Virus record (IMG/VR): IMGVR_UViG_3300031707_000001
Location: 124,001-188,000 of that record
DNA: 64,000 nt
Origin: a virus
Reading direction: 5' to 3' (one strand)
Shown in pieces: positions 23,378 through 55,170 of the stretch; position 1 is the stretch's first letter, and every line of letters begins with the position of its first letter. The notes under the pieces are model-generated. The model did no database searches. It saw only the letters and a program-made list of their open reading frames with translations, and was not told where the DNA came from. The translations under genes and the position numbers were made by a program.

Positions 23378-23378
23378 C

Positions 23379-28687: not shown

Positions 28688-28712
28688 TTACTGATAAGTT
28701 CGTGTCCTTGGG

Positions 28713-28739: not shown

Positions 28740-28794
28740 AACTATTGCATCCAACACATTGTTCTGTTACATTGATGGCAACCATGGAGTAGCT

Positions 28795-30315: not shown

Positions 30316-30345
30316 AATACGAACAACATAACGAAAGACGAATAT

Positions 30346-31915: not shown

Positions 31916-31916
31916 A

Positions 31917-35302: not shown

Positions 35303-35306
35303 TGTT

Positions 35307-35444: not shown

Positions 35445-35450
35445 GTCTAA

Positions 35451-35480
35451 ATATTACTATGATCGTATGTTCTCTGTCAA
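35451..35480 (-). promoter_or_regulatory. Sigma-70-like promoter for minus-strand operon
   Basis: On the minus strand TTGACA (35480-35475), an 18-base spacer and TAATAT (35456-35451). The -10 matches at five of six positions in a sense close to TATAAT. Predicted start falls at about 35444, the first base of the zinc-ribbon gene, giving no room for an SD. It would drive zinc ribbon, HNH, primase-like and glycosyltransferase genes. Confidence 0.55.
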
Positions 35481-35559
35481 TTACTTTTCTAACATTTGCA
35501 ACTAGACAGTATAAAGTAAGCGTGATAAGCTATTGACGAACTTAAAAAAGGAGTTGCGT

Positions 35560-36657: not shown

Positions 36658-36684
36658 CAACCGTCGATCAAACAGGAGGTGCTC

Positions 36685-37350: not shown

Positions 37351-37354
37351 TATC

Positions 37355-38173: not shown

Positions 38174-39924
38174 AAGAATATGCACCAGGAATTGTTAACA
38201 AGGAAAATTATGGGGATCCAACCCGAAGTCTTGAAGCCGGGCAGTTGGCCGATTATGTCCTTCAACACCATACCACACACCGACATCCTAATACGCCTCA
38301 TTTGGATTTACGCATAGGCACACCAGCGACGGGTATGCATTCGTGGGCAATTCCTAAGGCTAAACTTCCAACAGCCGACGAGAAAAATTTAGCTATACAA
38401 ACGCAAATCCATTCCCCCGGATACAATACATTTCAGGGAAGCATTCGTAGTGGCTACGGCGAAGGTTTTGTTCGAAGACAGGATTTAGGAAAAGCACTTT
38501 TAACGAAAGTAACCCCCAACAGCGTATCGTTCACCATTTCTCATACCAAAGTTCCGGTGCGATACTCTTTGATTAGAATGGGAACTCGGGACGGAAGAAA
38601 CGGAAGAGATTGGTTGCTTGTTCACAAAGCTATTCCAAAAACCGTTGAAGGCGTTGGAGACAAGCCCAAGTACAAACTTATTGAGGCGGTCGATTTAGAT
38701 GATGCGCTTGAGCAGGCAACTGAAGTACAGGAAAAAATAGATGGTGCTGGAGGGGTCTACGAAATTGGATCTAAAGGTGAAACCGAAGCCTATAGTGTTA
38801 ATCCCCGGAAAACGGGTGAGCCAATTGTTCATACTGAGCGTACGGGATTGACTGGCGTAAAATCTCCTGAGGCTTTGTCAGGTACGACTCTTAGAGGTGA
38901 AATCTATGCCACGGATCCAAAAGGAAAGGCTATTCCTTTTCAAGAGTTGAGCGGGATTTTGAACTCAACGATCGCTAAAGCAGTAGAAACACGCCGAGTC
39001 AAAAAGCTGAAGATGCAACACGCTATATTCGATATTATTAAACACAAAGGTAAGGACGTATCCCAATTGCCTTTTGAAGAACGTAAGTCCCTTTTGAAGG
39101 AAGTAGTACCGCAGTTACCGTCCGAACACTTTCATTCCCCGCTATCGGCCACGGAAGAAGAGGATAAGACCCGGATGTTGGAAGACATTCGTACCGGAAA
39201 AAATCCCCGAACTTCTGAAGGTATTATCATGCACCTTCCCGGTAATAAGGTGTGGAAGTACAAGTTTCGTCCCGAATCCCGGGGATACGTTACGGGTGTC
39301 TTTCCGGGCAAAGCCGGCCGTACGGGATTGCCTGGCGGCGTAACATTCTCGGAGACCCCAGGCGGTGAAGAACTAGGACACCTTGGCTCAGGTTTCACGG
39401 TAGATGAACTCAAAGATATTGCCAAGAACCTGGAAGCCTACAAGACCAAACCAATGCGAATCACGCACATGGGCAAGTTCCCAGCCGGTACGCTACGAGC
39501 GCCCGTGTTCAGCGGATGGGAGACCGATGTAAAGGAAAGTACTGATATGCGCATGAAGATTTCTCCTTTGGTACGTGCTTTTGTCAAACAGGCTTTGACG
39601 GCCACTACAAGCGGACAGACGGCCGATGCTACAACAGCACCGCAGGCTGGTTATGCCATGAAGCCTTACGGCGATCAAGGCTACGATGCTTCGTTAACGC
39701 CTCAACGGGATCTTGCCCGTACAGGCTCTCCTGGAGCGCAGATACAACCCGGTCCCGAGATCCAACCGTTCTACAATCCGGCAGCAAGACCCGGTGTACC
39801 TGCAGGCGTGGTAGCACGACCTGGGACGGGTACATTGACAGCCAGTGAATCCGGACAAGCCGGGCAGGTCAAGAAATTCCTGACACCAAAAGGTGGTCCA
39901 ATCGCTACAGCAACAGGAACCTAA
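38170..39924 (+). CDS. LigD-like phosphoesterase fused to ATP-dependent DNA ligase
   Basis: 584 residues. Residues 25-170 resemble the 3'-phosphoesterase domain of bacterial LigD: YVLQHHTTHRHP, PHLDLRIG and HSWAIPKAKLP, then RDWLLVHK. The ligase domain follows: motif I EKIDGAG with the nucleotidyl Lys at K189, motif III LRGEIYA (E244), motif IV SEGIIMH (E350), and motif V WKYKF (K363, K365). The last 110 residues are Pro/Gly/Thr-rich, an unusual low-complexity tail. No LigD polymerase domain is present. Family knowledge: LigD repairs double-strand breaks with Ku; no Ku gene is in this window. It may process 3' ends in phage DNA joining. It overlaps the preceding HNH gene by 4 bases and touches the DUF192 gene. 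Confidence 0.75.
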   Translation: MKEYAPGIVNKENYGDPTRSLEAGQLADYVLQHHTTHRHPNTPHLDLRIGTPATGMHSWAIPKAKLPTADEKNLAIQTQIHSPGYNTFQGSIRSGYGEGFVRRQDLGKALLTKVTPNSVSFTISHTKVPVRYSLIRMGTRDGRNGRDWLLVHKAIPKTVEGVGDKPKYKLIEAVDLDDALEQATEVQEKIDGAGGVYEIGSKGETEAYSVNPRKTGEPIVHTERTGLTGVKSPEALSGTTLRGEIYATDPKGKAIPFQELSGILNSTIAKAVETRRVKKLKMQHAIFDIIKHKGKDVSQLPFEERKSLLKEVVPQLPSEHFHSPLSATEEEDKTRMLEDIRTGKNPRTSEGIIMHLPGNKVWKYKFRPESRGYVTGVFPGKAGRTGLPGGVTFSETPGGEELGHLGSGFTVDELKDIAKNLEAYKTKPMRITHMGKFPAGTLRAPVFSGWETDVKESTDMRMKISPLVRAFVKQALTATTSGQTADATTAPQAGYAMKPYGDQGYDASLTPQRDLARTGSPGAQIQPGPEIQPFYNPAARPGVPAGVVARPGTGTLTASESGQAGQVKKFLTPKGGPIATATGT

Positions 39925-40319
39925 TGGACGAAGTTACATTACATTTTGTGGATAAGGCGGGCAATGTCAAAGCCGAAGTAGCTGCCGAGATTGCAGAAAC
40001 ACCAGCCGATCGGCGTATGGGGCTTTCCAAGCGAGCATTTCTTCCATCCGGTAGAGGCATGTTTTTTGACAAGGCTGGAGCCTTTTGGATGAAGGATGTC
40101 AACTTTCCATTGGACATCGTTTTCTTGGATAAGCAGGGAACCGTACTTGAGAAACAGCATATGCCACAGGTCGAAGAGCCTACAGCATTGAAGCCACTTT
40201 ATGTGTCTTCGTCCAAGGAAGCTGCACATGCTTTGGAACTGCCGGCTGGCTGGTTTGATCGTCAAGGTTTGGCTGTAGGAATGAAACTTAGGCCAGTAGA
40301 GAGCAGACTGGACAGATGA
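39924..40319 (+). CDS. DUF192-family protein
   Basis: 131 residues, sharing one base with the ligase stop. The family pattern is clear: VAAEIAETPADRRMGLSKRA, then GRGMFFDKAGAFWMKDVNFP with LDIVFLDKQGTVLE, and AHALELPAGWFDRQGLAVGM at the end. Such proteins are usually exported or membrane-attached in bacteria, but this copy has no signal peptide. Its function is unknown in the family. It lies just upstream of the secreted island. Assignment to the family is good; role is not. Confidence 0.72.
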   Translation: MDEVTLHFVDKAGNVKAEVAAEIAETPADRRMGLSKRAFLPSGRGMFFDKAGAFWMKDVNFPLDIVFLDKQGTVLEKQHMPQVEEPTALKPLYVSSSKEAAHALELPAGWFDRQGLAVGMKLRPVESRLDR

Positions 40320-40376: not shown

Positions 40377-40766
40377 ATGAATTGGAAGAATGGATTGACC
40401 TCGATAGTCGTTATGTTGGTGGCGTTTTCGATTACAGCATTTGCTCAAACTCCCAGCGGAAACCGGGTGAATAACAGCGAAACGATTTTGATGACCAACA
40501 ATACGGTGAGGATCACGTTGGCCCAGACAACACAACCGGTAAGTCCTGCCCAGGTTGAACTGACGTTCAAGGCTCCGGTAACTGCTACCTTCACCTTCAA
40601 CTATGAGCGTGGGGCTTACACCAATATGGTGATCAACAGGACCCTTACAAACCTGGTAACGTATATTTGGAACTGCCCTCGGGATTTGAAGCTGGTGGGA
40701 AACGATACACTGGTATTCACCAAGTCTGTCAGTGATCGGGCTCAGTTAACGATCAATTGGAAGTAA
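40377..40766 (+). CDS. Small secreted protein
   Basis: 129 residues. The N-terminus has a Lys, a hydrophobic core of about 16 residues and the cleavage-like AFA|Q site, a Sec signal peptide. The mature part is beta-rich (VELTFKAPVTATFTFNYERG) and has no cysteine besides one in WNCPRDLK. SD aaggag 7 bases upstream. It is first in the secreted island and follows its promoter. A small periplasmic or surface protein with no recognised family. Confidence 0.62.
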   Translation: MNWKNGLTSIVVMLVAFSITAFAQTPSGNRVNNSETILMTNNTVRITLAQTTQPVSPAQVELTFKAPVTATFTFNYERGAYTNMVINRTLTNLVTYIWNCPRDLKLVGNDTLVFTKSVSDRAQLTINWK

Positions 40767-40779
40767 GGAGACAGTATTC

Positions 40780-43068
40780 ATGAAGAAACTGATTCATGTG
40801 TTTTTCGGTTTGTTGTTGGCGGTACTGCCTCTTGCAGCCCAAGAGATTGATAACGGAGCGCCGGTATACGTCGTTGAGATTATCAATGGCGTTCCGTATT
40901 TATCTGGCGCCGGCGGAGGTGGAGGCACCCCGGTCGATCTTACACCATATCTAAAGAAAGACGGTACAATCGCTTATACGGCCGATCAGAACGGCGGCGG
41001 ATTTGGAATTACCAATCTTGGGGCATTGATACCGTTTGGAAGCAATACTGTAAACTTGGGATCGCTGCTACATCCATGGGGAAGCATATATGCAAGCGGG
41101 CATACCATCTATTTGGACGGCATTCCAATGCTTTCGGTATCGAACAGTCAATTAGTTGTAGCATATCCAGTAGCCTCCAGCAATGGAACAACCTACACGA
41201 CAACAGTTGATCTTAGTGGTTTGTCCAATCAAGTTGCAGCCATAGAGGCTCGTACTAACGCCTGGAATACTGGATCCGCTGAAGGCAACTATGCTTCGAA
41301 CTGGATCGGTACGTATGGACCAGTTTTGGCCAGCACAAGTTATGTTGATAATGCTGTGTCCGGATATGCGCCCACCTCATCGATCAATGGAGTCTCTGGG
41401 CGTGTTTCTGCAATCGAAAGCAAAACCAATGACTGGAATACAGCTTATGGTTGGGGCAACCATGCTGTTGCAGGATACGCCGGTACAGGATCTGTGAACG
41501 CCGTTTCGGCGAGAGTTGGTACGATTGAAAGCAAAACCAATGACTGGAATGCTGTCTATTCCTGGATGCAGTCCAATTCTAATGGTTTGAGTTTTGTATT
41601 TTCTCAAACCAACTCGTGGACAGTAGGCGCCTCAGCGGGTAACTATGCATCCAATTGGATCGCAGTCTGGAGTCCAACTCTTGCCAGTACAAACTTTGTT
41701 ACTGATCTTTTGACTGGCTATGCTTCGACCTCAACGGTAAATGCGGTTTCTAGTAGGGTCGGAACCATCGAGGGACAAACTAACGCTTGGAATACAGCTA
41801 CAGCTTATGTAGCAGCAAAGTCGAATAACTGGGATACGGCGTATAACCATCTTTCAACCTTGTTTGCTGGATCGGGTACTACTGGCAATGTAACAAGTGC
41901 CACTGCCAATACCAACCAATACCTTCGTGGCGACGGTACCTGGCAGACTGTTGCAGCCTCAGGGGCTGGCGATGTTTTCAAGGGTAGTAACAATACCTAC
42001 TCTGCCGGAACAACTCAGTCCATGCCATATGCGATTATCAATAACGGATTGGAAGTGTATGGGAACACAATTCATACAAATTGTGGAGTTAGTTTGGGCT
42101 CTACAGATACAACCAAGGCCAAATTTTATGTCAATGGCGAGAGCGGAGCATATACAAACAAGCCTCTTGTCTGGTTCAATAGGAGTGCAGCGGCTACAGG
42201 CCCTATCTTGCAGTGGGGAACCAATGGTGTCCTTCTTGGGAGTATTGATGTGAATGGAAGCGTCTCTGTTCCATCAATAGGTATCTCAAACAATCTTACA
42301 CTCGGTGGGGTTACAGTGAGTTCCTTCTCGACGAACACTCCGATCTTTGCGGATGGCTCCCAGCCATTCAACGCCACTATGAATGCTGGAACTTTCGGAG
42401 TAACGAATCTTGGCACATTGCTTCCATTTGGCAGTAATACCTGTGATCTTGGAAGTGCCGCTCTTCCGTGGAGAAATGCGTATTACGTTTCGCATACGAT
42501 CTATATGGGCGGGTGGCCTATTTCTGTTGACGATGGCACCGGAAAACTCCTTGTACCGGGAGTTCAGTATTCTGCTCCACAATACACTATAAAGTCTGTG
42601 GCCGCTTCTGATATGATGCTTCGTGGTGCCGCTACTGATCCTGCATGGGATGGGCTCAAGGTTCGTATGACCTTCTCTGGGACGAATCTGAACGGGGTGA
42701 GTTTCATTTGCGATCTTCCGCAGTACAGTCCCGAAACCGATATAGTTCCGTTGATCTTGTGGGAAGGAAATGATGTGAATGTTTCCAATGTAATCTGGCA
42801 GATGGATTACATCTGGCGCAATATAGGTGATATTTCTACCTATGGAGATTGGACTACGCTTGCTGTGACTAATGTCAATCCTGCTTTGAAATGGCAATCT
42901 AAGGTATCCCGTTTTCCGACGGTTTCGGGAGCAGGGAAGAATAAGAATTCTGTCATTCAAATCAGACTGCAACGCCGTGGTGACTTGGACGATAACAACG
43001 ATACTGCGAGTCTTCTTTTCTTCGGGCTTAGGTATGCAATCCAAGCCACAGGTGAGGATGCACAATAA
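40780..43068 (+). CDS. Exported tail-fibre-like repeat protein A
   Basis: 762 residues with a signal peptide (MKKLIHVFFGLLLAVLPLA, cleavage near AAQ). The mature part is built from modules of phage fibres: an LGSLLHPWGSIYASG-type element (again as LGSAALPWRNAYYVS near residue 560), GNYASNWIGTYGP repeats, and WNTAYGWGNHAVAGYA. Two perfect 24-base repeats (starting 41416 and 41527) mark a duplicated 37-codon unit. The C-terminal domain (LKWQSKVSRFPTVSGA, then IQIRLQRRGDLDDN) resembles a fibre tip. Fibres are normally assembled in the cytoplasm, so the signal peptide is unusual. It may be a surface-displayed adhesin that uses virion modules. The stop overlaps the next start. Confidence 0.66.
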   Translation: MKKLIHVFFGLLLAVLPLAAQEIDNGAPVYVVEIINGVPYLSGAGGGGGTPVDLTPYLKKDGTIAYTADQNGGGFGITNLGALIPFGSNTVNLGSLLHPWGSIYASGHTIYLDGIPMLSVSNSQLVVAYPVASSNGTTYTTTVDLSGLSNQVAAIEARTNAWNTGSAEGNYASNWIGTYGPVLASTSYVDNAVSGYAPTSSINGVSGRVSAIESKTNDWNTAYGWGNHAVAGYAGTGSVNAVSARVGTIESKTNDWNAVYSWMQSNSNGLSFVFSQTNSWTVGASAGNYASNWIAVWSPTLASTNFVTDLLTGYASTSTVNAVSSRVGTIEGQTNAWNTATAYVAAKSNNWDTAYNHLSTLFAGSGTTGNVTSATANTNQYLRGDGTWQTVAASGAGDVFKGSNNTYSAGTTQSMPYAIINNGLEVYGNTIHTNCGVSLGSTDTTKAKFYVNGESGAYTNKPLVWFNRSAAATGPILQWGTNGVLLGSIDVNGSVSVPSIGISNNLTLGGVTVSSFSTNTPIFADGSQPFNATMNAGTFGVTNLGTLLPFGSNTCDLGSAALPWRNAYYVSHTIYMGGWPISVDDGTGKLLVPGVQYSAPQYTIKSVAASDMMLRGAATDPAWDGLKVRMTFSGTNLNGVSFICDLPQYSPETDIVPLILWEGNDVNVSNVIWQMDYIWRNIGDISTYGDWTTLAVTNVNPALKWQSKVSRFPTVSGAGKNKNSVIQIRLQRRGDLDDNNDTASLLFFGLRYAIQATGEDAQ

Positions 43069-46000
43069 TGAGATTTCTAACTTCTGTTGTGATGCTCCTT
43101 GGGCTATCCCTGTGTGCGTCAGCGGTTGATTACACATGGGACGGTGGCAATACTGCTGGTTATCAGTGGACCGCTCCTACCAACTGGAATCTGGACGCTG
43201 GTGCTCCCACTACTACGGCAGACAGGGCAATTTTTAACACTACAGGAACCACTAAGAATCCTACCGTTGATGTAAATATTGCTTTGGATGAATTTGTAGT
43301 TGGTGGAACTACGGGTTGGACGTGGTATCGGATAGGTGATATTACAAGTTTGGATATGCTTACCTACGGAAGCAGTGGAAGTTCCACAATGAATCCCGCT
43401 ATCACCGGGAAACGTCTTCTTGTAACTAACGGTATTCTCACTTTGAATGCTTCCAACAACTTTTCTGATACCGTTACGTTTCTGGCTGGTTCTGTTGTAT
43501 TAGGTACATCAGGTCAGATTGGAACAAATACTCCAATTCATATGGACGGATTTAGTGTATTGACGCTGAATTCTAGTAATAACTGGTATTCTTCTCAAAC
43601 TACTACAGTAGATTCTGTCATTGGCGGAACGGGCACGATAGAGTTGAAGTATAATGGAGCACCCATTCCTGTCTCAACAAATTCGTCTGGTGTTGTATCT
43701 GTTAATCAGGTCTCGTATAGCTATCCTCTTGATCTTGCATCAATTGGTATGATGTATCTCGGTTCCACAAATTTAGGAACCAATACTGCAACCAGTCTTG
43801 GAGTGGGTTCCGATGGAAACTATAGGATAGGCGCAGGTGGTGGAACAATAGCATTTGATTCTGCGGGTAGTGATCTAGGCGTGTTTACAGGAGCATGTAA
43901 TCTTGTTGTTGGAAGAAACGGTGGTGGAGTTAAGTATACAGGAACAGCCGTGCTGTCCGATTCCAATACCTTCTCTGGAACGATAATTGTCAATCGGGGA
44001 AGCACTCTAACAGGGTTGGCAATGACCAACAATAGTGGAGGTAGTCCCTTTGGAGCCACTAATGGAGTAGTCACGCTCAATTCGGGGGTTCTTAAATTGT
44101 CTCGTGGGTCGGCTACTACTATCAGACAACCTGTTGTTAAAGGAGCCATGAATCTTACTGGAGGTTCTACTGTTTATCTGGATGGAAATCATGCCACGGC
44201 AAATGTTCAGATCACTTTCGATTCAATTACGAAAGACCCCATATATGATTCTGCTCTGACAATTCAATATGTCAGTGCTCTTGGAACAAAGGAGAGATTT
44301 TTTGTCAATACTGGGGATTCGTATATCACAAACGATGCTCAGGGCATGATAAACGCTATGTATGTTGGGCTACAGGGAACTACCCTTTATTATCCTCTTA
44401 CCAGAAGTGGAGCATCTTCTCCTTACGAACTATTGACAACAAACTATACTTATACGACAGGGGCCGCTAGTCCATTCTCTAATTCTATACCTACAAGTAT
44501 TGTTTTGGTGTCTAATGCTGGAGGTTATAGTCCAGAACTTATTTACGGCCAAACGATCACGAATTGGGCAACAGCTTTTGCTTGGAATGGTCATTGGAAC
44601 TCGTCTGCTGGTTCAACTATAGTAATTCAAAGTGGTTTATTGATATACGAATATTCAGGTGGTCCTAGCTTCCGGTCCAACTTGGATTTTTCACTTGCAT
44701 CTCAGGGTAGAATAGTTACGATGTCTGGTGGAACCCTTAATGCACTTGGGAATATTACTTCTCCATATCTTGTAAAATCAGGACCGGGAGGACTTAGTCT
44801 GGGTTCGGCAGCTCCGGGACATACGGGGATCAATGGAAAGCTATTAGTTTCTGAAGGTCTTGTGGAATTTGATCAGATTGGAGGAGCCGATTTCTTTTCA
44901 AACATACCTAATGCAACCAATCTAATTTTAACCGGCGGAAGTATAGCTTGTACTGCGGGAAGATGTAGTTTCCAAACAAACATTACTGTCATAATAGGTC
45001 CAACCGGAGGAACTATCACATCTGGTGACTATATGTCATTTTATGGAAAGGTTACTGGTCCCGGTTTGATGTGTTGGAATGGACTTGCCGGTAAAGAGTT
45101 AAGATTTAGGGGTGTGGGTAACGATTGGTCTGGTGGTTTGTATGCTAGTTTAGGGATTGTCACTGTTTATGATGGAAGTAGTTTAGGAAGTGGTCCTATA
45201 AGAATGGCTGCTGGAACTACACTTAATGTCAGAACCAATCTGGATATTTCTTCTCTTCGAGGCAGGGGTGCTGTAGTGATTGGAAATGATGTGGCTACTG
45301 GAACTAAATATCTGACCGTCGGAAGCGGAAACACGGACGATAACTTTCCGGGTGTCATAAGCGATCAAGCATCTACTAGAAATGGATCGTTGATTAAAAC
45401 GGGAACAGGGACTATGACATTATGGGGACCGAATACCTTTACTGGCGGAACAACAATCAATGGGGGAATTCTGGCTGTTACAGGATTCTCCTTGCATGAT
45501 ACGGGTACGGTAACTGTTGCTGGTGGAACTTTGAGTATGATTGATAGTGAGACTGTTGGGAATGTAACTTTGAATTCTGGTTCAATTACTGGAAATAGTA
45601 CATTAACTACTGGAAATTTATATCTCAATCAAGGGACAGTAGATTCTATTCTCTCTACCGCATCTAACTTCGTGAAGAACACTTCGGGAACTGTTACGCT
45701 GAACAAAGCGAATACATTTTCCGGGTCGGCAATCATCACAAACGGATTGTTGCTCGTCCAAGGAAGCATTGGTGCAGGCACAACACTTACAAACTATATG
45801 GGCACACTTGGCGGGACTGGGACTGTGTATCGTCATGTTGAAATGATGCCGGGAAGCTATCTTACACCCGGAGCTTCGATTGGAACGATTACTGTTAGCA
45901 ATTTGAACTTTGAAGTGGGCAGCACTGTGGACTTTGAATTGGCGACAACGAATGCAAGTGACTTTGTTCAAGTCAATGGATTGCTGGGGTTGGGTGGCAA

Positions 46001-46238
46001 TATTCGAGTTGTGCCGTCAACGGGATTCGGATATGGAGTATATCCGCTCTTTGGATATACAACGATCACAACGAATCAAGCACCGAGGATTATCACGCCT
46101 GCCGGGTATGCAGGAACTTTGAGCACTGACGATTCCGCCAAGAAGGTATATTTGACAATAGGTTCTGACGCTCTTCGACCTGTCAAGTCGGGAACGTCTT
46201 TACTTTTGAAATCGGGTAAGATATTGTTGAGTAAGTAG
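43068..46238 (+). CDS. Exported autotransporter-associated beta-strand repeat protein
   Basis: 1056 residues with a signal peptide (MRFLTSVVMLLGLSLCASA). The N-terminus YTWDGGNTAGYQWTAPTNW and a repeated pattern such as TGTMTLWGPNTFTGGTTING GILAVTG-type strands (near residue 790) match autotransporter-associated repeat proteins. A TPGASIGTITVSNLNFEVGS segment near the end is the common C-terminal form in PVC bacteria. No autotransporter barrel or PEP-CTERM was seen, so anchoring is unclear. The base and codon use (many aat, gga, tct) is more AT-rich than neighbours, a sign of transfer from the host or a related bacterium. It would form a long beta-solenoid on the cell surface. It overlaps the previous stop by one base. 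Confidence 0.72.
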   Translation: MRFLTSVVMLLGLSLCASAVDYTWDGGNTAGYQWTAPTNWNLDAGAPTTTADRAIFNTTGTTKNPTVDVNIALDEFVVGGTTGWTWYRIGDITSLDMLTYGSSGSSTMNPAITGKRLLVTNGILTLNASNNFSDTVTFLAGSVVLGTSGQIGTNTPIHMDGFSVLTLNSSNNWYSSQTTTVDSVIGGTGTIELKYNGAPIPVSTNSSGVVSVNQVSYSYPLDLASIGMMYLGSTNLGTNTATSLGVGSDGNYRIGAGGGTIAFDSAGSDLGVFTGACNLVVGRNGGGVKYTGTAVLSDSNTFSGTIIVNRGSTLTGLAMTNNSGGSPFGATNGVVTLNSGVLKLSRGSATTIRQPVVKGAMNLTGGSTVYLDGNHATANVQITFDSITKDPIYDSALTIQYVSALGTKERFFVNTGDSYITNDAQGMINAMYVGLQGTTLYYPLTRSGASSPYELLTTNYTYTTGAASPFSNSIPTSIVLVSNAGGYSPELIYGQTITNWATAFAWNGHWNSSAGSTIVIQSGLLIYEYSGGPSFRSNLDFSLASQGRIVTMSGGTLNALGNITSPYLVKSGPGGLSLGSAAPGHTGINGKLLVSEGLVEFDQIGGADFFSNIPNATNLILTGGSIACTAGRCSFQTNITVIIGPTGGTITSGDYMSFYGKVTGPGLMCWNGLAGKELRFRGVGNDWSGGLYASLGIVTVYDGSSLGSGPIRMAAGTTLNVRTNLDISSLRGRGAVVIGNDVATGTKYLTVGSGNTDDNFPGVISDQASTRNGSLIKTGTGTMTLWGPNTFTGGTTINGGILAVTGFSLHDTGTVTVAGGTLSMIDSETVGNVTLNSGSITGNSTLTTGNLYLNQGTVDSILSTASNFVKNTSGTVTLNKANTFSGSAIITNGLLLVQGSIGAGTTLTNYMGTLGGTGTVYRHVEMMPGSYLTPGASIGTITVSNLNFEVGSTVDFELATTNASDFVQVNGLLGLGGNIRVVPSTGFGYGVYPLFGYTTITTNQAPRIITPAGYAGTLSTDDSAKKVYLTIGSDALRPVKSGTSLLLKSGKILLSK

Positions 46239-46253
46239 TGAAAGGATAAAGCA

Positions 46254-46412
46254 ATGAGAATTCTGTCTGTTCTGCTCGTAATTGTAATGGGTGCCTTTCT
46301 GATGGGTTGTGCTGGAACTAAATCGGCCGATAGTAAAGCGGGCCCGAAGAGTCCGGCAAAGATGATGGTAAAAGATACACGTCCTCGTCCGCTTCCGGCC
46401 GGCATAAAGTAA
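46254..46412 (+). CDS. Small lipoprotein
   Basis: 52 residues (MRILSVLLVIVMGAFLMGCA then basic, Pro-rich). The LMGC lipobox marks a diacylated N-terminal Cys after signal peptidase II. The mature peptide is about 33 residues with KSPAKMMVKDTRPRPLPAG. SD aaagga upstream. A short lipoprotein between two surface-protein genes could be a lysis-type or exclusion lipoprotein, or an anchor for the neighbouring proteins. No family was recognised. Confidence 0.62.
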   Translation: MRILSVLLVIVMGAFLMGCAGTKSADSKAGPKSPAKMMVKDTRPRPLPAGIK

Positions 46413-46430
46413 CATCGAATGGGGGTTCTT

Positions 46431-47726
46431 ATGTGGAAATGGTTGCAGAATCTTATTGATCAGATTTCCAAATGGATCAAGCCGAAGCCCACACCAACAC
46501 CTCCGGCGCCAGACAACCCTTCGCAACTCAGAGGTTACGGTATGGTTTGTCATTGGATGACGCTACCTGATTTTATAGCCTTCGCAAAGGCCATAAAGGA
46601 TAGTGGTTGCAACTGTACCTCCATAGAACTGTTCGGCAGGGAAGAGGATAGTTGGATCAACCGCCAGGACTTCTTGAAACAGCAACTGTCTAATCTCCTT
46701 ACTGCGTGTCGAGCCAACGGCATAACGCTATTCGTCAATATGGTAAACTGGGGTAGTGGTAGTTTGACAAGCCAACCTGATACGTGGTTTCAAGGATGGT
46801 TGGATTTCATCAAGCAATTGGGGCCCGACAAATTGATTGTCCAGGCTGCCGCAGAGTGGCATGATGGCAAGGCTGCTGCGTGGTGTCAAATGGCTGAGTC
46901 GACCTTGTCCGGCTTTAAGCTGTCCTGGAATCAAGGATCCAGGCCTTCTACAGCTTCTGCCAAGTACGCTTACATCGACTATCATTCAGCTTCCATAGGT
47001 GATTACGGAGTGTCGAATAAACGCATAATCTGCAACACCGATAGTGGAATACTTACCGAGATGGAGAATGGTGGCATAATGGGGCAGACGTTTATACCTG
47101 AGAAAGTCACACAATTTGCGACTGGCGCTCTGGCCCAGGGCAAGTCTGTCAACTTGTACGGGTACAATCATAAGAGCCTTGATGTCGAAGCAGTAAAGAC
47201 TTTGGGAAAAGTTGGAAATCCTAATCCAACGCCAACTCCGACCCCGAGTCCGGACGGATTTGTCTTTGGACAGAATTGCATTTGGCTGGGAGACATACCT
47301 TGCTCTAAAGACGCACAAGTAGCGCCCAATGCGAAGATACTAACTGCAAATGCTTCAAATACGAGCTATGTCAATCTTACATACGCTTCCGAGGCTAGTC
47401 AGCAGTGGTGGAAGCCTTACGACCAGTTTTGCTACGGACCACACGGGGCTCAATACAAAGCAGCCGACGGTAATTGGTACGCCGGTCGTGCTGATTGGTT
47501 TCCTATACAGTTGAGAAACAAGATTGAGATAGGGAACTATTGGAAGAGTGATACGCCATTTAAGGATCATCCCCCTGTAGTCGGCAATCCTTTCTACTTC
47601 TTTGTGTATTCGTCCGACGGGAAAAATCGATCTACAGCCATACAAGTTGTATGGAAACTGGGATTCTTCCGCTCCATATGGCGGAGATTGAAGACAACGA
47701 ATAAGAAGATGCGAGGTATTAAATGA
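46431..47726 (+). CDS. TIM-barrel glycoside-hydrolase-like protein
   Basis: 431 residues from the ATG at 46431, with gggggt upstream; the ATG at 46419 is an alternative. After a Trp-rich helix and a Pro linker (KPKPTPTPPAPD), the barrel shows MTLPDFIAFAKAIKDSGCN, then LFVNMVNWGSGS and LIVQAAAEWHDGKA, whose Glu may be catalytic, then YAYIDYHSA. A Thr/Pro linker (PTPTPTPSPDG) leads to a C-terminal domain of 140 residues rich in Trp and Tyr. There is no signal peptide although the neighbours have one. It may degrade a glycan at the host surface or act within the lysis system. Family number cannot be given. Confidence 0.52.
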   Translation: MWKWLQNLIDQISKWIKPKPTPTPPAPDNPSQLRGYGMVCHWMTLPDFIAFAKAIKDSGCNCTSIELFGREEDSWINRQDFLKQQLSNLLTACRANGITLFVNMVNWGSGSLTSQPDTWFQGWLDFIKQLGPDKLIVQAAAEWHDGKAAAWCQMAESTLSGFKLSWNQGSRPSTASAKYAYIDYHSASIGDYGVSNKRIICNTDSGILTEMENGGIMGQTFIPEKVTQFATGALAQGKSVNLYGYNHKSLDVEAVKTLGKVGNPNPTPTPTPSPDGFVFGQNCIWLGDIPCSKDAQVAPNAKILTANASNTSYVNLTYASEASQQWWKPYDQFCYGPHGAQYKAADGNWYAGRADWFPIQLRNKIEIGNYWKSDTPFKDHPPVVGNPFYFFVYSSDGKNRSTAIQVVWKLGFFRSIWRRLKTTNKKMRGIK

Positions 47727-50700
47727 CTTGGAAAAGGCTTATCGGATTTTTGGCAGGTGTAGCGGTTGCTTCTGTGGCTTTTGCCCAGAGTCAAAATAAC
47801 GTGTTGTCACAACTGGGCGTAAAAGGCGTTACCGATCAGATCTATGGTACGAATCCAGCGCTCTATGCCGGCTATTTGGTTAAGACTGGAACGAACGGGC
47901 TATTCAGTACATCGATGATGTCTACGGATATTGTGCCACGGCGTTGGTTTGAGACAGTTTTTCTGGATAGCGTAAATGGGTTGAATGCAACCAATTCCGG
48001 AACTGCGACCTGTCCGTACAAGACCTTCGCCTACGCCGCTGCTCGAACGACAAACGATACCGCTTTCGTATTCGCTCCCGGGACTTATGCGGGGGATACG
48101 ATTACGAACTCGCATGTACACCACGTAGCGTTGATCGGCTTGGATCCTACCAATACAACCATGACTGGTATATTGAACTTCAACGCCAATCTTATGGCCG
48201 GTACCCAGGACATTTCGGTGGATCTGTATGGTATCAACGTTGATACTGTGCGTCAGTATCAATATGGGTTGTTCAATGTTGGTCTCTACAATAGAGCAAA
48301 GGTAACAAGTCAGATTACAAGACTTTCTACCAATCTCAATAGCTCGTTGACACTTTTCATGGATCCTTCAACTTATTTGGCATCACCGATCACTACGAGC
48401 AACGCAACGATAGTTATCAAGGCTTATGTGCCACAAGGAACAGCCGCAGGACAATTGACGTGTTGGGACGGCGCTAATTGGGCAATCGTAGCTGCTGGCA
48501 CAACGAATCAAGTCCTCTATGGGGGTACTGTTCCGTTTTGGGGAAGTGCGTCGATCGTATACACGAATACAGCTATACCTGGAGACTTTACGCCTGCTAT
48601 CAGCAATAGATATAGCATAGGTTCTCAAACTATGCCCTGGAGCAACGGTTGGTTTGCTACAGGTTTGTATGTGGGCGGGTCGAACGTGTTGAACAGCATT
48701 TACGTGGGTAATTACGCATCCAACTGGATTTCGGTATATGGGTCTGCTCTTGCTTCTACGAATTATGTGAATGCGAGTATCTCCAACATAACGCTTGCTA
48801 CAGTTGTGGCCAACGGAAGCAATGCTTTTTCTTCCGTGGTGGTAGATGGAATACGAACTCCAGATGATGCGCCATATGTAGCTCTTGCTGTAGGCGTTAC
48901 CAATCGAACGCTTAATTATCAAGGAACAGAAGTTGTTAACTGGAGTTTAGGCGGCGTTAATAACGGTTGGCTAATGAAACGTCCTCTTCGTAGTGATTCC
49001 GACGGCGCCCCGAGTTTCGATCCAAACGAACGGGCTTTGATGGGGGCCTGGATCGCAAGTAACAATTTAACCGTGTGTGATTCACTATTTGTCAGCAACA
49101 ACATATCTGAGGCAGGCACTAACCTGGTATTGAAATATGCGTCTGTTCTTGAACCATTAGCCGTTGCAGCCAGTAACCACGCCTTTTATGCTTCTGAAGC
49201 CGGGCATTCCACAAATGCGGACAACGCAATGCAACTCAATTCTATCGGTGCGTCGGCATTTGCTCGGAGAGATACTACCAATACTTTCACTCAGCCACAG
49301 ACTATCAGCATTAATAGCGCTGCAACTATAGTATCAGACGCAACTAACTCCAACTCCAGCGGAGGAGCTTTATACCACATTGCCGGGGATACTGGAGAAT
49401 ATCTGCAACTCGGTGTATTTGGTTCGGCGTTTGCACTTCCAGGTGTTCGCCAACAGGGCTTTATCGGCTGTTCCACAAACATAATCATCGGGCTGGATAT
49501 GGATGTAGCATCTGGTGGAACGAGCGTATTTGATGTCTATACGGGAGGCTATCTTGCGGTTACTCCAACGCTTCGTGTTTCCGGAACCAACATCATGGAA
49601 AACGGGGTAGCATTGGGCAACAAATATGCGCCTAAAAATATAGAAACGTTGCAAACTGTGACAACGAGAGGGAACACTTCCGATCAGGATTTGGCTCTGA
49701 GTGGATCCAAAATTATCGTGGGTGGGTTGATAGGAGGTCCGGGAGGACAAACAACTTGGGGATTAGGTGCGTGGGGTGCAGATTTTGGAGTTCTAAATCC
49801 TTACGGAATTCAAAATCTTGATGCCAAAGCAACGTGGAATTTTGGATATTGCAACGGCTTTCCACCTAACATCTACGCCGCTCAAACTAACCAAGGTTAC
49901 GGATCGCTAAATCTAGGCTATATCAATTGTGCTGTATCTTCGGCTGCTCAGCTAATGACTGGTCGTGGTTCCTTGAACGTAGGTAACCTGGCCAACGGTG
50001 AATATCAAAATACAAGCGGCAACGGAGCGTTAAACGTCGGCGCCAACAACACGTTGACACACGACTATTCTGCTGTCTTCGGCAATGGCCAAGTCTCGTA
50101 TGAGACCAATTCAGTATCTGCTCGCAAGTATTACGAAGCTGGAGCCGCCCTGTCCAACAGGTATGCTGGAATTGCTATTGAAGGATGGACCAACAATTGG
50201 AATATAGGAGCAGCAGAAGGCAACTATGCTTCTAATTGGGTCTATACTTGGGGCCCTGCTTTGGCCACTACGAATTATGTGAATGCTAGTATCTCCAACG
50301 TGACTCTTGCTACAGTTGTGGCAGCGGGAAGTAATGCTTCTGCAGTAATCACCGCATATGGCGTGCGAAATGAAAATGAATCTCCTATGCTGGTCCCATC
50401 AGTTTGCGTAAGTAATCGGACGTTAAACGTTGGCGGTGTTCCATATCTAAAATGGGACAGTAGTTGGTTATACTTTCTCCAGCCCATACGAAGCAACGCA
50501 GATGGCGGAGAGAGCATGGAAGCTAACGATCGTGTCTTGTGGGGCAACTGGGTTGCAACAAACGATTTCGCAGTAGCCGGCACGATTACCGAGGGATCAC
50601 AAACACTGAGTCAGAAGTATGACTCCAAAATACGCCCAGTGGAAGTAAAGACTGACAACTACAACGTGCTTACGAATGATGTCGCAAAAACGTTTGTAAT

Positions 50701-50959
50701 GAATACGGCTTCAAAGACCAATTTCCTGCCATCAGTAGATGCTTCTAATGTGGGTATTTGGTATACCTTCGTGAAGCATAATACCGGCACGTTGACGATA
50801 AAGGCGGCAGGTATCACTCAGATAGCCGACAGCGGACAGGGTGATACGATTTATGATTCTCAGGCTGCCGAAGTCTATGCCACAGTAACGCTCCAACTTG
50901 TCACCAGCACGAACTGGGTAATAACAGGTGCCCACGGAACTTGGACAACCACGGACTAA
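47723..50959 (+). CDS. Exported tail-fibre-like repeat protein B
   Basis: 1078 residues, ATGA-coupled to the previous gene. A signal peptide (MTWKRLIGFLAGVAVASVAF, AFA|Q site) precedes a beta-helix-like domain (FLDSVNGLNATNSGTATCPY, then APGTYAGDTITNS, residues 75-140). Fibre modules follow: SQTMPWSNGWFATGLYVGG and GNYASNWISVYGSALASTNY, repeated as GNYASNWVYTWGPALATTNY. The two copies are about 115-140 residues apart in sequence-module terms and 1.5 kb apart in DNA. The C-terminal domain (TFVKHNTGTLTIKAAG) resembles fibre ends. It shares modules with protein A (40780), which points to a common fibre-derived origin. As with A, the signal peptide makes a virion role unexpected. Confidence 0.66.
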   Translation: MTWKRLIGFLAGVAVASVAFAQSQNNVLSQLGVKGVTDQIYGTNPALYAGYLVKTGTNGLFSTSMMSTDIVPRRWFETVFLDSVNGLNATNSGTATCPYKTFAYAAARTTNDTAFVFAPGTYAGDTITNSHVHHVALIGLDPTNTTMTGILNFNANLMAGTQDISVDLYGINVDTVRQYQYGLFNVGLYNRAKVTSQITRLSTNLNSSLTLFMDPSTYLASPITTSNATIVIKAYVPQGTAAGQLTCWDGANWAIVAAGTTNQVLYGGTVPFWGSASIVYTNTAIPGDFTPAISNRYSIGSQTMPWSNGWFATGLYVGGSNVLNSIYVGNYASNWISVYGSALASTNYVNASISNITLATVVANGSNAFSSVVVDGIRTPDDAPYVALAVGVTNRTLNYQGTEVVNWSLGGVNNGWLMKRPLRSDSDGAPSFDPNERALMGAWIASNNLTVCDSLFVSNNISEAGTNLVLKYASVLEPLAVAASNHAFYASEAGHSTNADNAMQLNSIGASAFARRDTTNTFTQPQTISINSAATIVSDATNSNSSGGALYHIAGDTGEYLQLGVFGSAFALPGVRQQGFIGCSTNIIIGLDMDVASGGTSVFDVYTGGYLAVTPTLRVSGTNIMENGVALGNKYAPKNIETLQTVTTRGNTSDQDLALSGSKIIVGGLIGGPGGQTTWGLGAWGADFGVLNPYGIQNLDAKATWNFGYCNGFPPNIYAAQTNQGYGSLNLGYINCAVSSAAQLMTGRGSLNVGNLANGEYQNTSGNGALNVGANNTLTHDYSAVFGNGQVSYETNSVSARKYYEAGAALSNRYAGIAIEGWTNNWNIGAAEGNYASNWVYTWGPALATTNYVNASISNVTLATVVAAGSNASAVITAYGVRNENESPMLVPSVCVSNRTLNVGGVPYLKWDSSWLYFLQPIRSNADGGESMEANDRVLWGNWVATNDFAVAGTITEGSQTLSQKYDSKIRPVEVKTDNYNVLTNDVAKTFVMNTASKTNFLPSVDASNVGIWYTFVKHNTGTLTIKAAGITQIADSGQGDTIYDSQAAEVYATVTLQLVTSTNWVITGAHGTWTTTD
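48701..49140 (+). repeat. Fibre module repeat, copy 1 (in protein B)
   Basis: A module of about 145 codons: YVGNYASNWISVYGSA, STNYVNASISNITLATVVAN, later NRTLNYQGTEVVNW and LRSDSDGAPSFDPNERALMG. Copy 2 lies at 50211-50628. The first 80 bases of the shared segment are highly alike between copies, and related GNYASNW units occur in protein A. Confidence 0.7.
50211..50628 (+). repeat. Fibre module repeat, copy 2 (in protein B)
   Basis: Second copy: AEGNYASNWVYTWGPA, TTNYVNASISNVTLATVVAA, later NRTLNVGGVPYLKW and IRSNADGGESMEANDRVLWG. It has the same order as copy 1 (48701-49140) with changed loops, as expected of an old intragenic duplication. Confidence 0.7.
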
Positions 50960-50969
50960 GGAGACTACG

Positions 50970-51860
50970 ATGCCAGACGTATCAGTAAACAGATTTGGAG
51001 CGGCAAAGGGACTCATAATGTCGGACGTTACACAGACCAATGTTAACTTGAGTTCTTTGTTAAGCTGGATTTCTCAGAACAATAATATAGACCTAAGAGA
51101 TTTCAAAGCAGCTACTAATGTAGTTTTAGGGACTTTGCCAAATAAAATACGTGGTATAGATATAAGTGGTCTACCTTCTTTGACTAGCTTATCTATAACT
51201 TCTTCGGATTCTAATTCCCGACCTTACCTTCGGATAAGAGATTGCATTTCGTTATCTTCTTTTGGTAGTGGTAGTGCAGGATATTTTCGTAGCGTGGATG
51301 CTAGTGGTTGTACATCACTTACCACTCTAACGGCAGTTATTAAATGGCAGGCGGGCGATCCTTATCCTATAGCATTTGCTGGATGTAATGCTCTTACTAA
51401 TTTGGACTTTTATGGTGGAGTAGGGGCTTCTGATTTTGGAGCAATTACTATGGACTTCAGTGCTCTTCCTGCTTTGAGATATATTAACTCAAGAACTGCT
51501 ACTGGCCTTGTGGGGTTTATTGCGCCACCTTGTTCTTCCAATGCGTACTTCAGTTTTTACAACTGCACAAGTTTACTTACTGCTGATCTTTCTTTGGCTA
51601 CAGATTTGACCAATGTAAGTTTTCAACAGTGTTCTGCGTTGACTACTATAACAATTTCTCCGAGCATTACAGCAATTACTTTGGATGCTGCGTTGTGTTA
51701 TCTTTCTGAAGCCTGTGTGAATGACCTTGTAGCCAAGGGTGTAGCCTCTGGATTGAGTAGTCAAACTTTGCATATAGGGGGAGGAAATAACCACGCACTA
51801 ACTGGTCAGGGTATTACGGATAAGGCTACTTTGCAGGGAAGAGGTTGGACAGTTAATTGA
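50970..51860 (+). CDS. Leucine-rich-repeat (BspA-like) protein
   Basis: 296 residues from the ATG at 50970, SD aaggag 6 bases upstream. Irregular leucine-rich repeats are visible: LPSLTSLSI, CISLSSFGS, CTSLTTLTA, CNALTNLDF, CTSLLTADL and CSALTTITI. The C-terminus LSEACVNDLVAKGVASGLSS and LHIGGGNNHALTGQG matches the tail of phage and bacterial BspA-type proteins. There is no signal peptide. Codon use is AT-rich compared with the fibre genes. BspA-like repeats bind surface proteins or glycans; as the protein lies in the surface-protein island, adhesion is plausible. Confidence 0.65.
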   Translation: MPDVSVNRFGAAKGLIMSDVTQTNVNLSSLLSWISQNNNIDLRDFKAATNVVLGTLPNKIRGIDISGLPSLTSLSITSSDSNSRPYLRIRDCISLSSFGSGSAGYFRSVDASGCTSLTTLTAVIKWQAGDPYPIAFAGCNALTNLDFYGGVGASDFGAITMDFSALPALRYINSRTATGLVGFIAPPCSSNAYFSFYNCTSLLTADLSLATDLTNVSFQQCSALTTITISPSITAITLDAALCYLSEACVNDLVAKGVASGLSSQTLHIGGGNNHALTGQGITDKATLQGRGWTVN

Positions 51861-51878
51861 CAAGTTAAAGGAAAACGA

Positions 51879-52265
51879 ATGAAAACAAAAATTCTAGTGT
51901 GGGCGTTAATGGCGTGTTTGGCTACTCCGGCAATTGCGTATGATTGGTTGACAACTATGCAGGCACCGGTGGAGAATCGGCTTCTATCTATTGGTATATG
52001 CTCGTACAGCGAAAGTGCGCATCCTTTAGCTGCAGCCGCTTATTTCAACTTTTGTCCTCTTACTTTCTTCGATGATCATCTTCGTATTGGTGTTGGTATG
52101 CTTGGTGGCTACGATGATGGGGACGTGCTGTTCAAACTTCATACTTCCGTGAGTACTAGGATCTTTGATTCATTGGAGGTCGGTGTGTGGTATGCACCGT
52201 TTTGGGGCTTGTCCCGGTATGAAGATCCATACGGCGTAATGGTTGGATACGTATTCAAACTCTAG
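51879..52265 (+). CDS. Small exported, membrane- or outer-membrane-type protein
   Basis: 128 residues with a signal peptide (MKTKILVWALMACLATPAIA, cleavage near AIA|Y). The mature part has alternating aromatic strands (HLRIGVGMLGGYDDG, VLFKLHTSVSTRIFDSLEVG, VWYAPFWGLSRYEDPYGVMV) and ends GYVFKL, with a terminal aromatic strand like small beta-barrel outer-membrane proteins. SD aaagga upstream. Barrel count is too low for a complete porin, so it may assemble from several copies or be a lipid-associated surface protein. Confidence 0.58.
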   Translation: MKTKILVWALMACLATPAIAYDWLTTMQAPVENRLLSIGICSYSESAHPLAAAAYFNFCPLTFFDDHLRIGVGMLGGYDDGDVLFKLHTSVSTRIFDSLEVGVWYAPFWGLSRYEDPYGVMVGYVFKL

Positions 52266-52273
52266 GAGACGCT

Positions 52274-53092
52274 ATGAACTATAGACTTGGTTGGATACGA
52301 GACTTTGCAGACATCAGAGATTTTCACGTTAAACACGAAGAGGTGCTGCCGTACAAGTTGGAAGAAGCACCGTTAGAGCCTGAATGTAAAATTGCAATCC
52401 TGCCGCCCATAAAGAACCAGGACCAACTCGGCAGTTGTACGGCGAACGCCGGCACCTACATGTACGAGACGTTTGCTTTGCAACTCCAAGGCGCCGGTAC
52501 CGTTCCGGCTTTGAGTAGGTTGTTCCTGTACAAAGCTACTCGGAGATTGGAGGGGTCGAAAGGAGACACAGGTGCTCAACTTCGAGATACAATGAAGTCG
52601 TTGGTACTATTTGGACTTCCTCCTGAGTCATATTGGCCGTACGACATCTCGAAGTTTGACAACGATCCTACTGCCTTTGAGTACAGTATGGCTCAAAACT
52701 ACCAGGCTCAGACTTACTACCGGTTGGATCCACAGGGCAAAGATGCAGAAAGCGTTATTGCTTCGATCAAGTTGAACTTAGCTGCTAATCGAGCCTGTAT
52801 ATTCGGCTTTACGGTCTATCACAACTGCATGAATAACGGTAACGGAAACGTAAGGCTGCCCGGGCTCTTTGACTTCGTAGATGGCGGCCATGCCATATGT
52901 GCCGTAGGATATGACGATACTCGGGTTATCGAGGGATCTACAGGGGCCTTCATATTTGCCAATTCCTGGGGTACCGTCTGGGGAGATGCAGGTTTCGGTT
53001 ATCTGCCCTACGATTACGTGCGAAAAGGCTTGGCCACCGACTGGTGGACCATGATGAATGGGGAATGGGTCAATTTGGACGTTTTCAAGTAA
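52274..53092 (+). CDS. Papain-family (C1) cysteine peptidase
   Basis: 272 residues, SD aggag 6 bases upstream. The catalytic set is intact: Q49 (oxyanion hole) and C55 in NQDQLGSCTANAG, H206 in DGGHAICAVGYDD, and N230 in FANSWGTVWGDAG. No signal or pro-peptide is seen; the N-terminus starts MNYRLGWIRDFADIRDFHVK. Family knowledge: C1 peptidases cut proteins, in bacteria often in surface or host-protein processing. It closes the secreted-protein island, where it might process exported proteins or a host target, or serve as a virion protease. The 3' end is followed by a terminator-like hairpin. Confidence 0.82.
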   Translation: MNYRLGWIRDFADIRDFHVKHEEVLPYKLEEAPLEPECKIAILPPIKNQDQLGSCTANAGTYMYETFALQLQGAGTVPALSRLFLYKATRRLEGSKGDTGAQLRDTMKSLVLFGLPPESYWPYDISKFDNDPTAFEYSMAQNYQAQTYYRLDPQGKDAESVIASIKLNLAANRACIFGFTVYHNCMNNGNGNVRLPGLFDFVDGGHAICAVGYDDTRVIEGSTGAFIFANSWGTVWGDAGFGYLPYDYVRKGLATDWWTMMNGEWVNLDVFK

Positions 53093-53393: not shown

Positions 53394-55142
53394 CTAGAGT
53401 TTGATGGAGGCAAGAATATCCCGAGGATCAATGTGGTCTATAGTTGGCGCCTCGCCCGACAGCGCTCTTTCTTTACCCAAGGCGTGGGCCGGTATGACAT
53501 CTACCATTTCGCTATTCATCAGCTTCATGGCTACCATAGAGGCAAAGCATAGTGCGTGGGCAAAGTCGTCTGGCCGGTTGGGGTTACGCATAAAATGCCG
53601 GTAGTCCATACCACCAGATTCTACGGCTTCTTCGTAGGGACTCAGCAGATCGGCGGTGTAGATATCGAACTCTTCTTTAGGTGGGAACTTCACCCGACCG
53701 TACCTGATAGCTAAAAAAAGAAGTTCCAGGGCTGTTGTTTTGTCCACTGTCCAACGAGTATGTCCCAACGTAGGGTTGTATGCCAGAAGGTGGTTCTGCC
53801 GGGTGTACATGATCTGGACAACAGGTAATCCAAAGCGTTGTTCCAGCATGACGTTCTGGGTAAACCCCACACCATAGTCTGCTGCCAAAATGCGGCAGTG
53901 ATAGAAGTGATGTGCCTGGGCGACTTCGCTTAGAACGGTATCGGGGTCAAAGCCCACGAACCGGCGGGCCCAGAGGACATCCAGATTTCCGTCTGCTCGT
54001 ACGCCAATGATCGTATGAACGGTAAATGAGTCTTGTTCGGCAACACCCCAGTCTATACCACCCACAGTGAAAATGTACTCATGCATCCGCTTCTGTAATT
54101 CCTTGATGCTGGGAAGCGTGCTGTTTCGATCGATATCCTCTTGGGTGATAATGCGTGCGCCCAAGGAGCAGGAGATCCCCAGGATTTCCTGCATAACGAT
54201 CGGAAGTGGAAGACGCAGTACTTTTCTAGTCAATGTTGACCACTTGTATGGATCCTCCACAATGGCCGGCACGACTATTTGGGGAATGTGAAATCCTCGA
54301 AACAAGTGATGACGATCCGGATGGGCAGCCACAAATTGTCCGTCCCTAACATTTAACAGTTTACCACATTTGATGCAGTGAACACCGTCACCTTGAATCA
54401 TGTTGAGAACTTTGCCTTCAGTGTTTGGGATATTCCAGAAATTACATGCTGGACACTTCATGACCCACTCACACATGGATGATTCTTCCCACAAGGATTC
54501 GATGGTGTTATCGGTTGTCTTGGCGGTCCCTGTGAATCGACGAACTCCCCAACTGGATGCTGTCAACGATTCCGAGATAATCGGAATGTTGTCAACCAAC
54601 TGGTCCTGGATTTCATCAAAATCGATTCTATCTGCATAGATACCACGAGCTCGATCGCTTGAGGTTTTGGCATATGTAAGTTGTATGCCTGAACCGTTAG
54701 CGAAGCCGTGATTGTGGACGCTCTTGACGATCTTTGAGTCCGAAAGGACGTTTTCCAGTGATTGCCTTTGAAGCCAGTTTGCCATATGACAAGAAGCAAT
54801 GGCTTCGTTCAGATACTGCGTGGAATAACGCTGTGTCTGGGCTTGCAGTGGCGCCACATACAACAGTTGCATATGGGGCACCATAATGAGATCCGCTATC
54901 TCGGAACGAGAAAGGTTCATTGTCTTACCGATTTGCCGCCCACACATGAAAATAGTGTCCGGCACGTATTCGGGACTATACATTTCTCGAAATTGAGGCC
55001 AGCGGTCTAAACTATATGGTTGCCCACGCACTCGAAACAACAGTGGTAACAGGTCGGCCCGGTGTATGGTGGATTCCACCGTACATTCGGGATTCTGTAA
55101 TACCTTTTCGAGGGAATCTAAATTAAGCGTGGGGTTATCCAT
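53394..55142 (-). CDS. terL: Terminase large subunit
   Basis: 582 residues from the minus-strand ATG at 55142. A longer in-frame TTG start at 55169 has no SD. ATPase: Walker A FMCGRQIGKT (about residues 66-74), Walker B ADRIDFDEIQ, and a coupling segment SWGVRRFTGTAKTTDNT. A zinc ribbon-like CPACNFW plus CIKCGKLL lies in the middle. Nuclease (RNase H-like) Asp residues are in GGIDWGVAEQD, ILAADYGVGF and RPDDFAHAL. Family knowledge: this motor packages DNA into the prohead and cuts it. It is separate from the tail genes and on the opposite strand, and no small subunit was seen beside it. Confidence 0.9.
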   Translation of the reverse strand: MDNPTLNLDSLEKVLQNPECTVESTIHRADLLPLLFRVRGQPYSLDRWPQFREMYSPEYVPDTIFMCGRQIGKTMNLSRSEIADLIMVPHMQLLYVAPLQAQTQRYSTQYLNEAIASCHMANWLQRQSLENVLSDSKIVKSVHNHGFANGSGIQLTYAKTSSDRARGIYADRIDFDEIQDQLVDNIPIISESLTASSWGVRRFTGTAKTTDNTIESLWEESSMCEWVMKCPACNFWNIPNTEGKVLNMIQGDGVHCIKCGKLLNVRDGQFVAAHPDRHHLFRGFHIPQIVVPAIVEDPYKWSTLTRKVLRLPLPIVMQEILGISCSLGARIITQEDIDRNSTLPSIKELQKRMHEYIFTVGGIDWGVAEQDSFTVHTIIGVRADGNLDVLWARRFVGFDPDTVLSEVAQAHHFYHCRILAADYGVGFTQNVMLEQRFGLPVVQIMYTRQNHLLAYNPTLGHTRWTVDKTTALELLFLAIRYGRVKFPPKEEFDIYTADLLSPYEEAVESGGMDYRHFMRNPNRPDDFAHALCFASMVAMKLMNSEMVDVIPAHALGKERALSGEAPTIDHIDPRDILASIKL

Positions 55143-55170
55143 GGAGACATTAATCCAGAACTGGACCAAT

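Follow-up and report, generated by a model that had tools for sequence, protein, structure and literature searches.

Why would a phage place Sec signal peptides in front of proteins built like tail fibres? In the accepted view, tail fibres are produced in the cytoplasm and attached to the tail there, and the question arises for a block of genes at positions 40377-53092 of the window analysed here, a 64,000-nucleotide stretch that covers bases 124001-188000 of the 210,732-base IMG/VR virus record IMGVR_UViG_3300031707_000001 (block genes are named by the window position at which they begin). An initial annotation had described the block as an exported surface-protein island by which the phage rebuilds the surface of the infected cell; the exported fibre-like set and its recurrence in relatives hold, and both the rebuilding and the choice it offered between superinfection exclusion, adhesion and receptor decoys go beyond what sequence can tell. 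We give about an even chance to the block being a fast-changing phage cassette of tail-fibre-type adhesins, carried behind Sec or lipoprotein signals for action on the envelope of the infected cell. Such a cell would probably direct fibre-like proteins to its own surface, either in place of incorporating them into virions or ahead of doing so. Predicted export is well supported, and the function is what we infer.

Predicted signal peptides cluster in the block

Each of the following six proteins begins with an n/h/c-type signal peptide (a slash marks the predicted cleavage site):

40377-40766, + strand: 129-amino-acid (aa) protein, predicted to be exported, type I signal (SITAFA/QTP); no known family and no relatives found
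40780-43068, + strand: 762-aa fibre-like protein, predicted to be exported, type I signal (LPLAA/QEI) followed by fibre repeats of the WNTAYGWGNHA type
43068-46238, + strand: 1056-aa protein, predicted to be exported, type I signal (CASA/VDY), with PATR, or autotransporter-associated beta-strand, repeats
46254-46412, + strand: 52-aa predicted lipoprotein with lipobox LMGC
47723-50959, + strand: 1078-aa fibre, predicted to be exported, type I signal (SVAFA/QSQ), conserved N-terminal module, DUF1565/beta-helix, fibre repeats and tip-like C-terminus
51879-52265, + strand: 128-aa protein, predicted to be exported, type I signal (TPAIA/YDW), beta-strand-like pattern; no family or relatives found

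All six are real genes with ATG starts, most of them preceded by a clear purine-rich ribosome-binding site, and every leader has a charged n-region, an h-region of 9 or more residues and an AXA site or lipobox. The earlier claim of a signal peptide or lipobox on six proteins is thus borne out, and signal prediction on all open reading frames, which had been proposed as a check, scored the six N-termini positive and found them clustered. The calls were made with a rule-based scorer, which returns false positives for about 1.1% of shuffled or internal windows; the LMG/C lipobox of 46254 is a by-eye reading, and the scorer labels this protein type I. Depending on the gene caller, 13/239 or 15/274 genes were positive genome-wide, compared with 6 of about 10 genes in the block from 40377 to 52265 (against 15/274; hypergeometric 1.7e-6), and permutation of the maximum count in 10 genes gave p = 0.0006 for this genome. 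The signals are clustered in the block beyond chance.

Since the calls come from a heuristic scorer and a gene-caller start error was met in one relative (L057), the leaders could in principle be hydrophobic N-termini or products of wrong starts. Against such an artefact stand the start codons and leader architecture of all six genes, the clustering itself and the conservation of signal class among orthologues whose leaders are unrelated in sequence, and we consider it extremely unlikely.

The genome encodes 70 proteins of at least 250 aa, and the three with the lowest charge are 43068, 40780 and 47723, whose N/T/S/G content is 39-46%. A seventh signal-bearing protein of the window lies outside the block (28013-28687, 224 aa, VVFA/QTK); no relatives of it were found.

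A fibre family keeps its place while its leader changes

The fibre 47723 has orthologues, with or without signals, in 8 other records. Its locus is framed by two conserved markers:

39924-40319, + strand: DUF192 protein (PF02643, 6.5e-23), upstream marker, without a signal peptide
53394-55169, - strand: terminase large subunit, TerL (phrog_675, 4.1e-54), convergent downstream marker

Upstream DUF192 and convergent downstream TerL frame the locus in L045, L052, L053, L057 and L061, and a DUF192 orthologue was found in G002, G004, G005, G006, G007, G008 and G009. The 47723 family lies between the two markers in the window, L045, L052, L053 and L057; in L020, the closest relative, it adjoins TerL, and the contig ends before DUF192. 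The phage itself is of the contractile-tailed type, as indicated by a baseplate wedge protein (phrog_6) together with the phrog_675 TerL, and its genome is probably complete, since the record ends in a 127-base direct terminal repeat. TerL identity to cultured phages is at most about 29% (best: Salmonella phage Arash), and among uncultured relatives it reaches 72% in L020, 69% in L045, 58-59% in L052/L053 and 51-54% in L057/L021/L055/L061.

The family bears a signal in six phages, the window included, and none in three. Type I (SPI) and lipoprotein (SPII) signals alternate: a type I leader precedes the fibre of the window and those of L045, L052 and L053, L020 has a lipobox, and the leader of L057 is of either type I or type II. 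The signal-less orthologues of L087 and L088 are found at the DUF192 locus, and that of L086 lies in the structural cluster. One of the signal-less orthologues, G007:66795-68834, sits inside the structural cluster, and the DUF192-linked fibre of G008 bears no signal. The mature N-terminal module (GVT..GG..YA.YL...G.L..S.LP) is constant among orthologues, whereas the leader varies. In a TerL tree, where L057 was labelled signal-less, the signal-bearing phages do not group in a single tight clade separate from every signal-less phage, which suggests that leaders were gained or lost more than once. Because leaders come and go in this way ahead of a stable fibre, the leader appears to be a movable, repeatedly used element. 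That L087 and L088 have orthologues without a signal at this locus shows that an ordinary cytoplasmic fibre is either where the module originated or a state to which it can revert.

That 40780 and 47723 carry fibre modules, as had been claimed, agrees with our searches. The repeats of 40780 also occur in the fibres of many other phages, and its profile match is phrog_36222 (unknown function, 1.3e-4). For the 47723 family, the DUF1565 match (4.7e-5) comes from the L020 orthologue. Modelled at low confidence, 47723 itself is similar to viral beta-helix fibres (BFVD best E 4.5e-4) and, in the PDB, to phage tail fibres and tailspikes, at probability 0.96-0.99 but with E >0.01. Among isolated phages no relatives of the fibres were found, save for low-complexity matches to tape-measure genes.

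These proteins might alternatively be host surface-protein genes (PATR, leucine-rich repeat (LRR) and others) that are simply carried as passengers, their fibre likeness being a convergence of repeat proteins. PATR repeats are indeed a cellular family, and no phage relatives were found for 40377, 43068 or 51879. Yet the 47723 family has been passed down at a single locus among phages with 51-72% TerL identity and has signal-less phage orthologues, and exported relatives match PHROG tail families, so that we hold the passenger explanation to be very unlikely.

Signal-bearing fibre-like proteins recur in the lineage

A search for the same gene block in other large phages, also proposed earlier, showed that predicted exported fibre-like sets recur within the same lineage. 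At the locus in L045, four signal-bearing genes follow one another and encode a 1373-aa fibre, a 513-aa Gly_rich_2 protein and two others. In G008, 8 signal-bearing genes fall in a run of 10 within a separate island (29307-39195; permutation 0/5000); one of the products, 593 aa long, has matches to PHROG tail/minor-tail families (4.8e-11) as well as YadA_head repeats. Three more fibre-like proteins with signals occur in G005, among them one of 1343 aa with a PHROG tail-fibre match (4.5e-8), and G004 has a signal-bearing BspA-like LRR lipoprotein amid its head genes. A signal-bearing protein of G006 (L159, G006:140001-160000, at 16116-16757, minus strand) ends in a PEP-CTERM-like tail of IPEP, a hydrophobic stretch and RRRRK (PF07589, 19.1 bits, just below the cut-off); this phage protein may carry a sorting signal for a host exosortase.

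The premise that virion fibres normally lack signals holds in the controls. Among fibre genes of unrelated phages that share the 40780 repeat, 1/21 (L029) has a signal and 2/21 lack an N-terminus, and in the cultured relative Arash 0/6 fibre-region proteins are signal-bearing, the Arash positives being unclustered.

As a separate observation, L129 (G008:20001-40000) contains at 9307-12818 a tandem series of paralogues, signal-bearing and about 300 aa long, that share a C-terminal motif, DVFYG..DF...L...LG...YN.F...YN.

The virion core is conserved and signal-less

Baseplate and tail genes, among them 13102-13710 and 14359-17352, carry no signals and are conserved in a comparison with eight relatives. 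The tail proteins at 9861-17352, also signal-less, are present in nearly all relatives, which indicates that the virion has other, cytoplasmic tail parts. The eight relatives yielded no counterparts of 40377, 43068, 46254, 51879 and 52274, which make up most of the block. Fast turnover of content at a conserved locus, together with predicted exported adhesins, suggests selection by host-surface variation.

It is nevertheless conceivable that the signal-bearing proteins are the real receptor-binding fibres of the virion. Sec would carry them out of the cytoplasm, they would fold and form trimers in the periplasm, and at lysis or later they would be joined to particles by way of the N-terminal module that signal peptidase leaves. 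This explanation stays alive because the module is conserved directly behind the cleavage site, in common with signal-less orthologues of which one lies in the structural cluster; moreover, the signal-bearing fibres are the genome's most variable adhesins, as is usual for receptor-binding proteins. However, we know of no tailed phage that finishes its tail outside the cytoplasm, the lipoprotein form in L020 would be held on the membrane, and the PATR, outer-membrane-protein-like and lipoprotein neighbours resemble envelope proteins. The tail cluster also holds a variable protein without a signal (25317-26417). We regard extracytoplasmic virion fibres as unlikely.

Other genes of the block

The three remaining genes of the block have no signal peptide:

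46419-47726, + strand: TIM-barrel glycosidase-like protein, assigned by fold match, with an N-terminal amphipathic helix
50928-51860, + strand: weak LRR (BspA-like) protein, with a sub-threshold LRR_5 match
52274-53092, + strand: papain-family (C1) cysteine peptidase (PF00112 2.1e-12; 3ois 2.4e-31)

The papain-family protein named in the initial annotation is a clear C1 peptidase with its catalytic C, H and N motifs intact. Similar peptidases directly follow tail-fibre-like genes in the unrelated large phages L012, L015 and L017-L019, and papain-type peptidases adjoin TerL in the relatives L047 and L048. One of these, at L047:8010-9833, has an intein-like insertion (Intein_splicing and LAGLIDADG_3 matches, sub-threshold).

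Two other assignments survive in part. The glycoside-hydrolase-like protein retains its fold match, with Foldseek hits to TIM-barrel glycosidases of GH29/GH5 (best E 1.2e-6), which come from a low-confidence model (pLDDT 43) of a protein for which no sequence-family match was found. The acids E70, E146 and E214 are conserved, and the fetched genomes contain distant relatives (G005:16599-17630 and G006:154815-155651), while a pattern scan of IMG/VR found none for 46419, 43068 or 51879. The BspA-like protein does match LRR_5 (E 6.6e-5) at a score below the cut-off (23.2 vs 27.7), and it is 32% identical to the G004 LRR lipoprotein over 137 aa. As for 46254, its lipoprotein character stands; it is not one gene with the glycosidase-like protein, from which it is separate, and it is possibly a small exclusion or o-spanin-like lipoprotein.

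The repeats of 43068 match TIGR02601 (3.7e-13) and PF12951 (3.8e-10). Since no family match to a C-terminal autotransporter barrel (translocator) was found in Pfam or NCBIfam, we rejected an autotransporter despite the PATR passenger repeats. The short protein 51879 is possibly a small outer-membrane protein.

A glycosidase-like TIM barrel and a papain peptidase in the block, together with a CBM5/12 domain on one predicted exported protein of G008, would also suit adhesins and enzymes secreted for spread, which would degrade or cross-link the matrix or serve as soluble decoys around the cell or at lysis and play no part on the infected cell. None of the enzyme-like proteins has a signal of its own, though, and the lipobox of the L020 orthologue argues for anchoring; we find secretion for spread quite improbable.

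Proposed role at the envelope and known systems

Under the envelope reading that we prefer, the block genes would probably be expressed late, and host Sec machinery would export the fibre-like adhesins to the periplasm, outer membrane or exterior during infection. Some of the exported proteins would be lipoprotein-anchored, in L020 the fibre itself. The adhesins would most likely bind the same surface structures as the virion fibres, so that receptors on the infected cell and on debris would be masked and both superinfection and re-adsorption of progeny limited, and the glycosidase-like protein and the peptidase, along with the other exported proteins, may modify the envelope. We favour envelope export with masking or exclusion because of the lipid-anchored orthologue, the envelope-type neighbours and the precedents of Llp/pb5, Lom and the Porphyromonas phages.

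Exported phage surface proteins are already known. Llp of phage T5, a lipoprotein of 61 residues, acts from the periplasm to jam FhuA; it adjoins the gene for pb5, and the purified receptor-binding protein pb5 alone blocks T5 (PMC9586334). Like Llp, and like Cor of T1, the proteins described here are phage-encoded, predicted to be exported and placed beside a receptor-binding gene, and they would block the phage's own receptor. The LMGC protein 46254-46412 (52 aa) resembles Llp and Cor as a small lipoprotein in the fibre region, whereas the exported proteins here include fibre-type adhesins of 400-1400 aa. Lom is a phage outer-membrane protein encoded between the lambda spike and fibre genes (PMC12309495). 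It is signal-bearing and lies among tail fibre genes, and 51879 is similarly placed. Lom itself is a beta-barrel, and no signals are described for the fibres next to it; 51879 is very short and without detectable homology. Nixviridae phages of Porphyromonas gingivalis encode five Sec-signal proteins of unknown function, fitted to the host signal peptidase, for which outer-membrane modification has been proposed (PMC10367356). Q is likewise exposed at four of the window's six type I cleavage sites (28013, 40377, 40780 and 47723), but neither tail-fibre modules nor a family-wide fibre locus is described for the five Nixviridae proteins.

Ordinary tail fibres and tailspikes share with these proteins the repeats, beta-helix, YadA-head and PHROG tail-fibre domains and differ in that export signals are usually absent there; target proteins of phage diversity-generating retroelements are likewise without signal peptides (PMC6199706). 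We found no description of exported tail-fibre modules in the literature (open PMC text).

Several points weigh against a role at the envelope. Surface display is not assured, because most of the proteins have no obvious outer-membrane anchor, and in sequence terms display looks no different from storage in the periplasm or from attachment to virions once the cell has lysed. The N-terminal module is also present on the signal-less L086, L087 and L088, which would fit a kept role in virion attachment. Clustering of signals taken alone is not significant in the genomes of L045 (p 0.09) and L057 (0.053), and the structure models, being of low confidence, lend weak support.

The locus would represent something new if receptor-binding fibres were exported by Sec and joined at lysis outside the cytoplasm, or if display of the phage's own fibres acted as receptor interference in the manner of retroviral Env; that one of the two applies is a tentative and somewhat doubtful proposition. 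A lineage that repeatedly adds export signals to fibre modules may be using its own adhesins as a shield for the infected cell, or may assemble its particles partly outside the cytoplasm. In viral metagenomics, filters by which a signal peptide means a host gene will misfile such phage fibre genes.

Neighbouring genes and further observations

Promoter and terminator scans of the block gave sites no more numerous than in shuffles. Immediately upstream, 38170-40319 encodes a protein with a LigD 3'-phosphoesterase and an ATP-dependent ligase, followed by DUF192; in L045, LigD_N-like and DUF192 parts form a single fused 578-aa protein. Farther upstream (27129-31230) lie an O-methyltransferase-like gene (Methyltransf_24) and a weak GT9-like gene, which possibly modify the envelope too.

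In the tail region, 17955-24155 holds four or five tandem diverged paralogues that start with a W..N...RSYPF/RNYPF motif and are conserved through the phage family. A TnpB/IS605-like transposase gene (19050-20102) lies within this tail gene cluster, between genes of the NENSLRNYPF type; it was dropped as a pointer to the host, since its best matches reach just 55% and are in unrelated metagenome-assembled genomes. The L098/L099 region (G002:40304-42898) encodes a protein with about a dozen near-perfect repeats of 'SLFVSLDIPCMPLSVRVS..VAL', and its homologue in the window (24157-25302) has few copies.

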